Positions 18,573 through 21,985 of a stretch of 64,000 nucleotides of DNA are shown here, one piece after another. Position 1 is the stretch's first letter; each line of letters opens with the position of its first letter. This stretch comes from Tenacibaculum sp. SG-28 (GTDB lineage Bacteria; Bacteroidota; Bacteroidia; Flavobacteriales; Flavobacteriaceae): contig NZ_MQVY01000002.1 in assembly GCF_002954385.1 (NCBI RefSeq), positions 229,690 through 293,689 of the forward strand. The letters run 5' to 3'. The position numbers and the translations under genes were made by a program. Below the pieces are notes generated by a model. That model saw only the letters and a list, made by a program, of their open reading frames with translations, ran no database searches and was not told the origin of the DNA.

Positions 18573-20494
18573 TTAAACTATTGGTAATCTCAAAGTAACC
18601 TTGGTACCATTGGCATATTGGCGTCATCATACAAATCGGTATATTCTAAGAAAAACTTATTCTCGAATTCATAGGAAAATATTTGGAGTCGTTGCTTGGT
18701 AAGCTCAATTCCGATAGACTCCCTTTGTAAAGATTTACTATTTTTTATTTTGAGAGCCTCTTCCCTTCCGATTCCATTATCGGTGATTGTTATCTTTATG
18801 AATCCTGACCCTATTTTTGTTACTGCTAAAGCTACTTTTTTTTCTCCTTTTTTAGAAGATAATCCATGCCATATCGCATTCTCTAAAAATGGCTGCAGAA
18901 TTAATGGTGGTACCTTAATCTTATCTAAATTTATAGTTTCATCAATGGATTCTGTGTATTGAATTTCGTTCAAAAATCGAATGTTTTCAATACTCATATA
19001 TATATCCATAGTTTTGAGTTCTTCTGAAAGAGATATCTCTTTAGCCTTTGAAGATTCAAGTATACTTCGAATTAACTTCGAAAATTTATTGAGATAATAG
19101 ACTGCATTTTTTTGTTCATTGTTAATAATGTACAATTTTATCGAATTTAAAGCATTAAACACAAAATGTGGATTCATCTGCGTTTGTAATGCCTCCTGTT
19201 CCAGCATAAGTATTTTCTTTTCATTGTTTAGTAATCTTTGCCCATAAAAAGCATATAACAACACCCCAAATAACGCGATAGAAACCAATGCGATTGTTAA
19301 TACATTTCTGTTTTGGGTTAGCTTTAACTTCGTAATTTCATTTTCTTTGCCTAAGCTCCTTTTCTGATTTGTTTTTACCTCATCGTCGAACCAATTAATT
19401 AAATTATTTACATATGCTGAGTTTTGACTATTAATTTTATCATTTTTTCCTTTCACAGATTTTTCATAATACACATAGGCATTTTCAAAATCCTGTCGCT
19501 CTCGATACACTTCTGAAAGATATTCATACGATTGGCTCACATTGTCAGCAATATTATATTTTAGTGCAACAGTTAATGCGTTTTCAATAGTTACTTGAGC
19601 AGAATCAATCGCACCAACTTTTAATAGAGAGTACCCTAATGTATTCCCTACTAGAGACCTGTAATAATTATTCCCAAGCTTTTGCGAGGCTTCCTTTACC
19701 TCTGAAATAAAGCGAAGTGCCTCGTTGAATTGTCCTTTCAAAATTAACACGCTACTAATTCTGTTGTGACATATAATTTTACCCAAATCAGAACCAATTT
19801 CGGTGTTGTAATTAAGAGACTCAAAATAATGTTTTAATGCTTTATCTAAATCGTCTAAATTTTGATGTACAACCCCAATACTTTGGTGTACTATTGCCAA
19901 TCCTCTATTGTCTTGAAGTTCCGTTTGAATCTCCAAAATTTTCGTAAATTTTTCCAAGGCAAGTGGATACTGTTGCAAATCCATATAGATATTTGCTATC
20001 CCACTCTCTGCAATAACCTTACTCTTTTTTAAATCGATAGTCTTTAACTTATACTTACTAATTAAATCTAAAGCATATTGATGGTAATTTAACGCCCTTC
20101 TAATTTTATCTTGACGCCGATATACAACGGCTATTTGGTTTAGAGTAACAATCTCTGCAAAAACAAGTTTCTCCTTACGAGAAATTTCTAAAGCCTTAAA
20201 GTGATAAGTTAAAGCATCCTCATACAACAAGTTAGTTCTGTTCAATCTTCCCAGAAAGTTATACGCATATATTTGTCCAAAATCATTAGAGGTAACTTTA
20301 CTCTTTGACAATAATAAATTAATGGATGATTCGTCTAAGTCGTACTGTCTAAAAAATGATTTTACTTGGTAAAAGTTATTATAATTAATATATAAGAAAT
20401 CATTAATTACGGAAGGATCTTGCTGCGAATACTCCTTTCCAAAAGCAAACGAAAATGATAAAAAAAACAAAAGTGTATACAAAAAACCTTTCAT
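18573..20494 (-). CDS. TPR-containing LytS-type sensor histidine kinase (frameshift at 3' end)
   Basis: The sensor has a signal peptide (ending SFAFGKEYS), a periplasmic region of tetratricopeptide repeats at about residues 60-360, one transmembrane helix at about 400-420 (NVLTIALVSIALFGVLLYAF), a coiled segment and a His_kinase domain with MNPHFVFNALNSIKLYI near 440 (phospho-accepting histidine). An ATPase domain follows with NAIWHGLSSKKG and ITDNGIGREEA. The open frame ends in the unnatural NMPMVPRLL. Adding one T at 18610-18611 gives NMPNGTKVTLRLPIV, the standard end of this family, with a stop at 18573-18575 and 640 residues in total. It lies four bases downstream of the LytTR response regulator and is surely its partner. 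The signal is unknown. Confidence 0.9.
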
Positions 20495-20498
20495 ACAC

Positions 20499-21233
20499 TT
20501 AAAATTTATCGAGAAAGTCTGCCTTTTTTTGCCTAGATACAGGAATCTTATAATTACCTTCTAAAATCACATAGCCGTCCGATTTCAAAAATTCTTTTAT
20601 TTTATTAAGATTGATAATGAAGGAATTATGAATTCTAAAAAAATGATCTTGTGGAAGCAATAAGTTAACTTCTTTAAGCTTTTTGGTAACTACTATTTTT
20701 TTTTGACTAGAGGTATGAATAGAGCAATAATTGCCATCCGATTCGACATACAGTATTTCTCCTTCTTCTAGAAAGATAAGTTTTCCGTCTGTGTTAATAG
20801 TGATTTTTCGTCGATCAAACTTTTCATTAAAACTATGTAGTATTTTATCGAACTTATTTTTACTACTATTTTTATGGAAGTACTTTTTTACACGAGTAAT
20901 TGTATCGGCTAAGTCATCACTGTCAATTGGTTTTAGCAGATAATCAATAGCCTGACTTTTCAATGCTTTAATTGCGTATTCATTATATGCTGTTGTTATT
21001 ACAATTGCAAAATCTTGAGCATCAATTTGTTGTAACAATTGAAAACCATCTATTGTAGGCATCTCAATGTCTAAAAATAAACAATCGAATTCATTAGAAT
21101 TAATAAATCTAATTGCCTCATCAGCATCGTTAAAGGTTTGGATAACCTCTATGTCTTCTTTGAAACTTGATAATTCCCACGATAGAATTTGAATAGCTTT
21201 TGGCTCATCATCAACAATAACTGCTTTTAACAT
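20499..21233 (-). CDS. LytTR-family response regulator
   Basis: A 244-residue regulator. The receiver domain at about residues 1-120 has the acidic pair in VIVDDEPKA, the phospho-accepting aspartate in CLFLDIEMP near 56, the threonine in VITTAYNE and the lysine in YLLKPI near 105. A LytTR DNA-binding domain at about 145-243 has LEEGEILYVESDGNYCSIHT and FFRIHNSFIINLNKI. It precedes its cognate kinase by four bases. Targets are unknown. The intergenic region just upstream contains the candidate small RNA, which is a reasonable first target to test. Confidence 0.93.
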   Translation of the reverse strand: MLKAVIVDDEPKAIQILSWELSSFKEDIEVIQTFNDADEAIRFINSNEFDCLFLDIEMPTIDGFQLLQQIDAQDFAIVITTAYNEYAIKALKSQAIDYLLKPIDSDDLADTITRVKKYFHKNSSKNKFDKILHSFNEKFDRRKITINTDGKLIFLEEGEILYVESDGNYCSIHTSSQKKIVVTKKLKEVNLLLPQDHFFRIHNSFIINLNKIKEFLKSDGYVILEGNYKIPVSRQKKADFLDKF

Positions 21234-21379
21234 GATTGGTACTTTATTTCAAAAATAAACTTTATAATTATAAAATTGCTACACAACATCATAAATATTA
21301 ACACAGCCCTGTATCATAACGTAATATACCAAAATATAAACTATCTATACAAGATTTAAGACCAATTACACATAAAGCA

Positions 21380-21410
21380 TTGAGTAATAGTTTATTTGTT
21401 TACATATTTG
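21380..21410 (+). promoter_or_regulatory. Promoter of the candidate small RNA
   Basis: TTG at 21380-21382 and CATATTTG at 21403-21410 are 20 bases apart. This is the Bacteroidota -33/-7 arrangement with one mismatch from TAnnTTTG. A transcript would begin near 21417, and no open reading frame of useful size follows. Confidence 0.55.
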
Positions 21411-21416
21411 CACCGT

Positions 21417-21509
21417 AGTACACATAAAAAAATCATTATGATGATTGGGGGATTTAATCAGTAATGATGATTACAAATAAAAGCACTTTATATTAAAGTG
21501 CTTTTTTTA
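21417..21509 (+). ncRNA. Candidate small RNA of about 90 nt
   Basis: The stretch between a promoter-like sequence and a strong terminator contains two short possible hairpins, AATCAT/ATGATT (about 21431-21446) and GTAAT/ATTAC (about 21461-21474). They surround an exposed GGGGGATTTAATC segment that is unusually G-rich for this genome. The two arms can also pair with each other in alternative ways. The only reading frames are a few codons long. I do not recognise the family with certainty, and a known flavobacterial motif such as Flavo-1 is one possibility. It lies divergent from the LytTR operon. The RNA call is an inference from promoter, structure and terminator. Confidence 0.5.
21479..21509 (+). 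terminator. Strong Rho-independent terminator
   Basis: AAAAGCACTTTA pairs with TAAAGTGCTTTT across a short loop, and the T run continues to seven. There is no protein gene immediately upstream on the plus strand, so it must serve a non-coding transcript. Confidence 0.85.
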
Positions 21510-21671
21510 TAAAAATAGATATAAAGTATACTACTATTAACACTACTTTATTCCATTATTGTATAAAGTTCTACAACATAGAATTTCTATGTGTTAATGA
21601 CAAGGTAATTTAAATCCTTTAACGTATTTTATGAAATAGTTTTAGATTTAAAATTATGAGTTTGTATATAT

Positions 21672-21703
21672 AAAAAAACTGCCTTTAAAAAGGCAGTTTT
21701 TTA
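21672..21703 (-). terminator. Terminator of the rplU-rpmA operon
   Basis: A7-CTGCCTTT paired with AAAGGCAG-T7 around a short loop lies about 20 bases past the rpmA stop, with T runs on both strands. Confidence 0.9.
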
Positions 21704-21724: not shown

Positions 21725-21985
21725 TTAAGCCTGAAACGGTTCAATAGAAACATATGATTTATTATCTCTTTTCTTTTGGAATTTAACAACACCATCAACT
21801 TTAGCATGCAATGTGTGATCTTTACCCATGTAAACATTTTCACCTGGATTGTGTTGTGTTCCTCTTTGACGAACAATTATATTACCTGCAATAGCAGCTT
21901 GTCCTCCAAAAATTTTTACTCCTAATCGTTTCGATTCCGATTCACGACCGTTTTTCGAACTTCCGACACCTTTTTTATGAGCCAT
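21725..21985 (-). CDS. rpmA: 50S ribosomal protein L27
   Basis: Ribosomal protein of 86 residues that reaches toward the peptidyl-transferase centre. It begins [20 protein letters not shown], without the cleavable N-terminal extension seen in Firmicutes. The rest ([21 protein letters not shown], then [12 protein letters not shown]) is typical. It follows rplU by about 34 bases in the usual L21-L27 operon and is followed by a strong terminator. Confidence 0.98.

Follow-up and report, generated by a model that had tools for sequence, protein, structure and literature searches.

A conserved small RNA gene predicted beside a LytTR two-component system in Tenacibaculum, with candidate pairing to TonB_C-domain gene starts in relatives

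The locus

The window, that is, the whole stretch of 64,000 nucleotides from Tenacibaculum sp. SG-28 that was analysed, carries a two-component system on the minus strand. The intergenic region between its LytTR response regulator gene and rpmA was found to hold a single plus-strand unit, made up of repeats, a -7 box, an RNA of approximately 95 nt and a terminator. The features of the region are as follows.

18590..20494, minus strand: sensor histidine kinase with TPR repeats, one TM-like segment (residues 395-419) and a His_kinase domain (PF06580)
20499..21233, minus strand: response regulator with a receiver and a LytTR DNA-binding domain
21340..21351, plus strand: LytTR-type site 1, ACTATCTATACA, two mismatches to the family consensus
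21361..21372, plus strand: LytTR-type site 2, ACCAATTACACA, 21 bp after site 1, one mismatch to the family consensus
21403..21410, plus strand: -7 promoter element CATATTTG, approximately 43 bp past the start of site 2
21415..21511, plus strand: small RNA gene, with the 5' end inferred from the promoter and the 3' end from the terminator
21420..21436, plus strand: 5' segment, AAGGGGAATC in most relatives, decayed in the window to ATAAAAAAATC
21431..21472, plus strand: main hairpin, with GGGGG at its tip (21447-21451)
21479..21508, plus strand: intrinsic terminator, a 12-bp stem (21479-21505) followed by seven T
21725-21985, minus strand: rpmA

The element at 21403-21410 is a -7 box of the Bacteroidota type. 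A first-pass annotation had proposed a small RNA at 21380-21510, and the elements that it listed were all present: a TTG at 21380-21382, a spacer of 20 nucleotides, CATATTTG at 21403-21410, and the 12-bp terminator stem with its seven T. Its exposed loop was confirmed as GGGGGATTTAATC at 21447-21459. Both of the hairpins that it described were there, although the second is the terminator itself, and the conserved upstream repeats (21340-21351 and 21361-21372) fall outside the proposed interval. A further 13-bp terminator hairpin, bidirectional in appearance, was seen at 21673-21702, near the end of the minus-strand rpmA gene.

The predicted fold of the window RNA had an energy of -24.3 kcal/mol, compared to a mean of -11.1 for shuffled sequences (z -5.58), and none of 200 shuffles was as low. 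In the Rfam search that the first-pass annotation had suggested as a check, which included the Flavo-1 and 6S families, the window gave no match at the curated gathering threshold and locally none better than E 0.44; eight related loci gave no match at E≤1.

A family of RNA genes in Tenacibaculum

A DNA search of the window's own genome and 58 relatives gave long matches in two relatives, which adjoined the same regulator. Examination of 17 orthologues of the regulator, the window's own included, revealed the divergent unit upstream of ten; two of these ten units had different stems, and one of the two was present in two tandem copies. The G-rich tip was kept on quite different stems in genomes G029 and G031. 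A covariance model built from eight sequences gave 50 strong matches (E≤1.2e-5; 48 distinct) in 35 of 166 Tenacibaculum genomes, counts that leave out ten weak Tenacibaculum matches (E 0.002-0.05). Five of the latter were inspected (L113-L117): L116, in G473, has the sites, adjoins the regulator and looks real, and L113, in G458, adjoins the regulator and may be real. There were five copies in T. haliotis (G472) and four each in T. soleae (G498) and G462, and tandem RNA pairs occurred in five genomes.

The family-level search covered 397 genomes including the window's own and, at more than 40 genomes, used stricter filters by which weak matches are lost; under these filters the best match in the 394 genomes of other genera had an E value of 0.008. 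Matches at E 0.008-0.05 in seven of the 394 were taken as chance, their loci having been scanned for GGGGGA only. A sequence-pattern scan of genome contigs gave 21 named matches, of which 20 were from Tenacibaculum and the other, from Sporobacter, was also taken as chance. Conservation in related genomes, another check named in the first-pass annotation, was found within Tenacibaculum but was not convincing beyond the genus.

Over the 50 matches (48 distinct), 96% of hairpin pairs were standard and four pairs had both sides changed. None of 500 shuffles reached any of five measures of hairpin covariation, computed on an alignment that was fitted to the structure. When the partner strand was slid, pairing dropped to 15-59%; the +3 slide also gave four doubly changed pairs, though just 53% of its cells paired. 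Under a loose criterion, a terminator was recognised in all 49 distinct members, and their stems comprise 36 different sequences.

The possibility that the unit encodes a short peptide is raised by related promoters, which elsewhere drive genes for 33-residue peptides (see below). However, as the first-pass annotation had held, there is no useful reading frame: in 49 distinct RNAs, the window's included, the longest closed ATG frame had 10 codons, and the longest of all, when frames running beyond the 3' end were counted, had 22, so that a coding function is next to inconceivable. It is also very improbable that the hairpin and terminator are merely the terminator or leader of a neighbouring gene. 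The window terminator is near-symmetrical, and the scan had flagged it for the minus strand, but although rpmA is the next gene at six of ten unit loci, it was not found within 1.5 kb at L032 and L033, where the unit is still there, and copies elsewhere in the genome have both the -7 box and the terminator.

Judged by sequence comparison, 21415-21511 (+) is a genuine small RNA gene of an apparently undescribed family, with no match in Rfam. The attributes of a trans-acting bacterial sRNA that were found comprise its own promoter, an intrinsic terminator, a lack of coding potential and compensatory changes, the last of which depend on the structure-fitted alignment. The original proposal of a small RNA beside a LytTR two-component system is borne out by conservation in the genus, covariation, terminators that are constant while their sequences change, and the lack of coding potential.

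The promoter and the LytTR regulator

Two direct repeats (consensus ACCATTTAYACA) lie 64 and 43 bp upstream of the -7 box. They were in register (≤6 mismatches in 24) in 44 of 48 usable distinct promoters, a count that leaves out the L111 promoter, which has no recognisable -7 box; at 24 other offsets there were no in-register promoters or, once, a single one. One of the four out-of-register promoters is off by one base. For the copies far from the regulator (G472, G498 and G462), both sites were in register in six of ten and were not in four. The strict form CCAnTT-N15-CCAnTT was present in 20 of 49 promoters; the window's own does not fit it.

There was no conserved -33 box. Since TTG was found at -33 in 4 of 49 promoters, the TTG at 21380-21382, which had been read as a promoter element, is probably incidental. 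A scan with a sigma-70 pattern was uninformative (31 found, 31.3 expected).

The double site (≤3 mismatches) was found at 118 places in 72 of 166 genomes, whereas the reversed pattern gave 11. The window's own genome has it once, at the promoter of this RNA. An orthologue of the regulator (E≤1e-80) was present once in each of 84 of the 166 Tenacibaculum genomes; these included all 35 RNA-bearing genomes, as against 49 of the 131 others. An RNA copy starts 170-190 bp from the regulator, in divergent orientation, in 34 of the 35 genomes, and the only copy in G483 is 2.1 kb away.

Paired direct repeats approximately 21 bp apart, at a fixed distance from the promoter, constitute the layout of a LytTR-controlled promoter. 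A passage of PMC4963840 gives the VirR motif as CCAnTT-N15-CCAGTT-N3-Cac, and a passage of PMC6193735 describes repeats 12 bp apart in LytTR regulatory systems. The 21-bp period and the CCAnTT core of the Tenacibaculum repeats match the VirR motif. The RNA is probably driven by the adjacent LytTR regulator; the suggestion that the system may regulate it gained weight from the LytTR-type repeats in register and from co-inheritance with the regulator. The TPR repeats of the kinase (18590-20494) come before its single TM-like segment; they are therefore likely to be in the periplasm, where a peptide could bind to them.

Complementarity to the starts of TonB_C-domain genes

The sequence complementary to the conserved 5' box was searched for in 12 genomes and occurred at 50 places, including 12 self-matches, compared to 25 for the control. 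Twelve of the 38 non-self places were inspected, and a start codon was found only at the TonB_C gene (PF03544) of G003 and G002. The other ten were set aside, three being sense and four antisense in open frames and three having no open frame. By eye, the first residues of the TonB_C target resemble a signal peptide. When 10 genomes were searched for sequences complementary to the tip of the hairpin (15 bases, ≤3 mismatches), 1829 places were found, compared to 1909 for the reversed sequence, and hence no enrichment.

Close TonB_C orthologues (E<1e-115) were present in 35 of 36 genomes with the class-1 RNA, that is, the RNA described above, G473 being included despite its weak RNA match, as it is in the target counts that follow; the single miss, G529, is a genome that is 59% complete. 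None of eight genomes lacking a strong RNA of class 1 or of the second class (see below) had a close orthologue, and three class-2 genomes had distant orthologues only. With a target and four-base thresholds that were picked after the matches had been seen, CCCC occurred within -30 to +25 of the start in 29 of 35 TonB_C orthologues, compared to 23 of 404 control starts; the controls were open frames of ≥150 residues on both strands of the window and the examined loci, a set in which some frames are not genes, related genomes recur and some TonB_C genes may be present. Early prolines were encoded by CCC in 25 of 29 cases in the orthologues and in 54 of 561 in the window ORFs. TonB_C paralogues carried a C-box in 8 of 14 cases in one set (15 regions, less one without a start call; starts were assigned by rule, and that of L252 is doubtful); a second, partly overlapping set gave 12 of 19 and 5 of 9.

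The C-box was found in all 27 genomes with an intact G-box (at least four G in the best 5' box) and in two of eight without, related genomes being counted separately; since the 35 orthologues and RNAs share ancestry, the independence of such counts is overstated, and our guess is that the joint losses of G-box and C-box fall in about three lineages. T. soleae and G483 have a C-box without an intact G-box. The T. soleae RNA has a run of three G, and the coding C-run is likewise down to three. For G483, whose C-box may instead have the hairpin tip as its pairing partner, the tip duplex was predicted at -15.3 kcal/mol, a level reached by 0.5% of controls.

With one chosen RNA per genome, the 5'-box duplex fell in the best 5% of the 404 controls in 25 of 35 genomes; with the best RNA copy, the 5'-box duplex did so in 27 of the 35 and the tip duplex in 28. 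Five genomes (G018, G465, G466, G468 and G487) have kept the RNA with no convincing pairing. From this complementarity, it appears that in relatives the RNA probably pairs with the messages of TonB_C-domain envelope genes and so silences them.

In the window's own genome the 5' G-box has been lost (ATAAAAAAATC), the start of the TonB_C orthologue has CCC only, and the duplex between tip and TonB_C start is marginal (-13.4 kcal/mol, a level reached by 5.4% of controls), for which reasons the target in this genome is uncertain. Two further TonB_C matches are present there. The earlier idea that the RNA may act on envelope genes is therefore supported for relatives, by the complementarity to TonB_C-domain gene starts, but weakly for the genome in which it was put forward. 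At most of the loci L247 and L221-L250, two or three TonB_C-domain genes were seen clustered together, and C-rich boxes mark the starts of many of them.

Proposed mechanism and relation to known systems

We consider it likely that the RNA is the output of the adjacent TPR-histidine-kinase/LytTR system and that it pairs with TonB_C starts in relatives. The phosphorylated regulator would bind the two direct repeats and activate the divergent promoter, where a -7 box is present but no -33 box is conserved; the comparative evidence for this step is strong. A non-coding RNA of approximately 95 nt, ending at the intrinsic terminator, would then be made, as the comparisons also support. Its G-rich segments, the 5'-proximal AAGGGGAA and the UUGGGGGA of the hairpin tip, would pair with CCCCUU boxes at TonB_C starts, a step that in the window's own genome would depend on the hairpin tip alone. 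Pairing across the start region is assumed, from its position alone, to repress translation.

To our knowledge, few Flavobacteriaceae regulatory RNAs have an activator and a target that are both known, and in the present case the two are predicted at base resolution. If the prediction is true, the LytTR-to-small-RNA logic of VirR and AgrA extends to another phylum.

By analogy, the RNA probably works like VirR/VR-RNA and agr/RNAIII. RNAIII is approximately 0.5 kb long and also encodes a peptide, whereas the Tenacibaculum RNA is approximately 95 nt, non-coding and sometimes multicopy, and its kinase is of the TPR type. The agr P2/P3-RNAIII system of Staphylococcus aureus, as presented in a passage of PMC4227749, is alike in having a LytTR regulator and a single intergenic region in which direct repeats precede P2 and P3. 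According to passages of PMC4963840 and PMC2838878, the VirS/VirR-VR-RNA system of Clostridium perfringens likewise has a LytTR regulator, a promoter preceded by two direct repeats with CCAnTT cores at a distance of 21 bp, and a regulatory RNA that is a direct output. VR-RNA differs in its length (386 nt), in a gene scattered from virSR, in phylum and in targets; its sequence was compared via Rfam only.

Two Bacteroidota systems were set apart by their descriptions. In a passage of PMC11697453, the FopS/GibS sRNAs of Bacteroides form a multicopy family that pairs close to start codons and thereby represses the translation of envelope proteins, but the promoters of FopS are canonical, possibly enhanced by an unknown regulator, and its targets are SusC homologues. 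Rfp18 of Flavobacterium psychrophilum is, in a passage of PMC9723704, a conserved flavobacterial sRNA affecting secreted proteins, but it targets protease mRNAs by predicted pairing; neither LytTR nor Tenacibaculum occurs in the main text of that paper. Literature searches on Tenacibaculum sRNAs, transcriptomes and LytTR and on flavobacterial sRNAs found the RNA in no title or abstract opening, and a search on LytTR binding sites in Bacteroidetes found none, with subscription papers largely outside the coverage in both cases. The review PMC9029176 includes Tenacibaculum in an sRNA survey, in a passage from which the RNA meant is not evident.

Other genes behind the double sites

Forty site regions, out of the 118 double-site places, were inspected. 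A second small-RNA class with a related tip was found behind the same double sites (L139, L141-L144, L158 and L169). Of 166 genomes, 11 have an identical 47-bp core of this class, from which the L139 variant differs, and no regulator match was found in the examined stretches around these loci. A two-hairpin RNA class with G-rich tips also lies behind double sites. In several genomes the RNA is replaced, at the same divergent promoter position adjoining the regulator, by a protein with a signal-peptide-like start; a basic motif of the (F/I)WKK type follows such a start at L040-L042, L044, L045, L159, L161, L165, L167 and L172.

Short peptide genes are also preceded by double sites. On inspection, the -7 box was 10 bp further off, which is one helical turn, at nine of eleven such loci (L145-L153). 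At the examined loci the peptides have 33 residues in 52 of 55 genes and 34 in the other three. They are basic, have no evident signal peptide and end in EFGKAAGYAINH-like motifs; 47 of 166 genomes encode them, with tandem arrays a common arrangement. The genes are located as follows.

C3:263568-263666, minus strand: peptide gene in the window's own genome (G000)
C2:494759-494857, plus strand: peptide gene in the window's own genome (G000)
L145-L153, L173, L177, L179-L208: peptide loci in relatives

GGG was present within 45 nt before the peptide start in 53 of 55 genes, compared to 4 of 58 window ORFs, with the G-box most commonly at -23. Three members searched against NCBIfam gave no match and against Pfam one sub-threshold match (E 0.18); twelve members searched against PHROGs gave none, and the best match of a profile against PDB had an E value of 0.76. 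These 33-residue peptides appear to be a family not described before, in a genus with fish pathogens among its members. RNA of class 1 or 2 and peptides occurred together in 38 genomes, RNA only in eight, peptides only in nine and neither in 111, kin genomes being counted separately.

These leaders bear on a reading in which the RNA is a decoy like CsrB/RsmZ, its GGGGA motifs titrating a protein that also binds same-sense G-boxes in the mRNA leaders of the 33-residue peptides. The GGG of the peptide leaders favours such a decoy, as do leaders that, by eye, are often laid out like the 5' end of the RNA (a short hairpin and then AAGGGGAA) and a tip motif that stays where the 5' box and the target are gone. 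However, CsrA was found in none of 12 genomes by a search that detected it in 3 of 14 named control genomes, and CsrA-type titration was for this reason demoted to a rival. There is, moreover, no known candidate protein to titrate, and a decoy leaves unexplained both the complementary C-boxes at TonB_C starts and the loss of these boxes together with the 5' box; we regard it as unlikely. A conserved RNA gene with another regulator or other targets would agree with the 23 LytTR-regulator matches in the window's own genome and with the weak pairing there, but it seems rather improbable given that the RNA adjoins this one regulator in 34 of 35 genomes and that the regulator is present in all 35. 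Activation by the adjacent regulator and pairing with TonB_C messages is the reading that we prefer.

Since the same G-box occurs in both, the peptide mRNAs and the small RNA could compete for the C-box messages. In a quorum-type Bacteroidota circuit built on this idea, the periplasmic TPR kinase would sense a peptide, the LytTR regulator would induce the G-box RNA together with the leaderless 33-residue peptides, and both RNAs would compete for the C-box TonB_C messages, giving an independently evolved network like agr/PSM/RNAIII with one shared seed. We offer this circuit as a speculation that is probably wrong.

Most of the examined peptide arrays lie behind a repeat of the GCGGAAA type, and therefore the LytTR regulator does not drive all of them. 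By eye, a second direct-repeat element, GCGGAAAATTACA...TGCGGAAATCCC, with a period of approximately 22 bp, precedes a -7 box of the TATATTTG type; it was observed upstream of peptide arrays at, for example, L191-L195, L197, L200 and L201, and is probably the site of another regulator.
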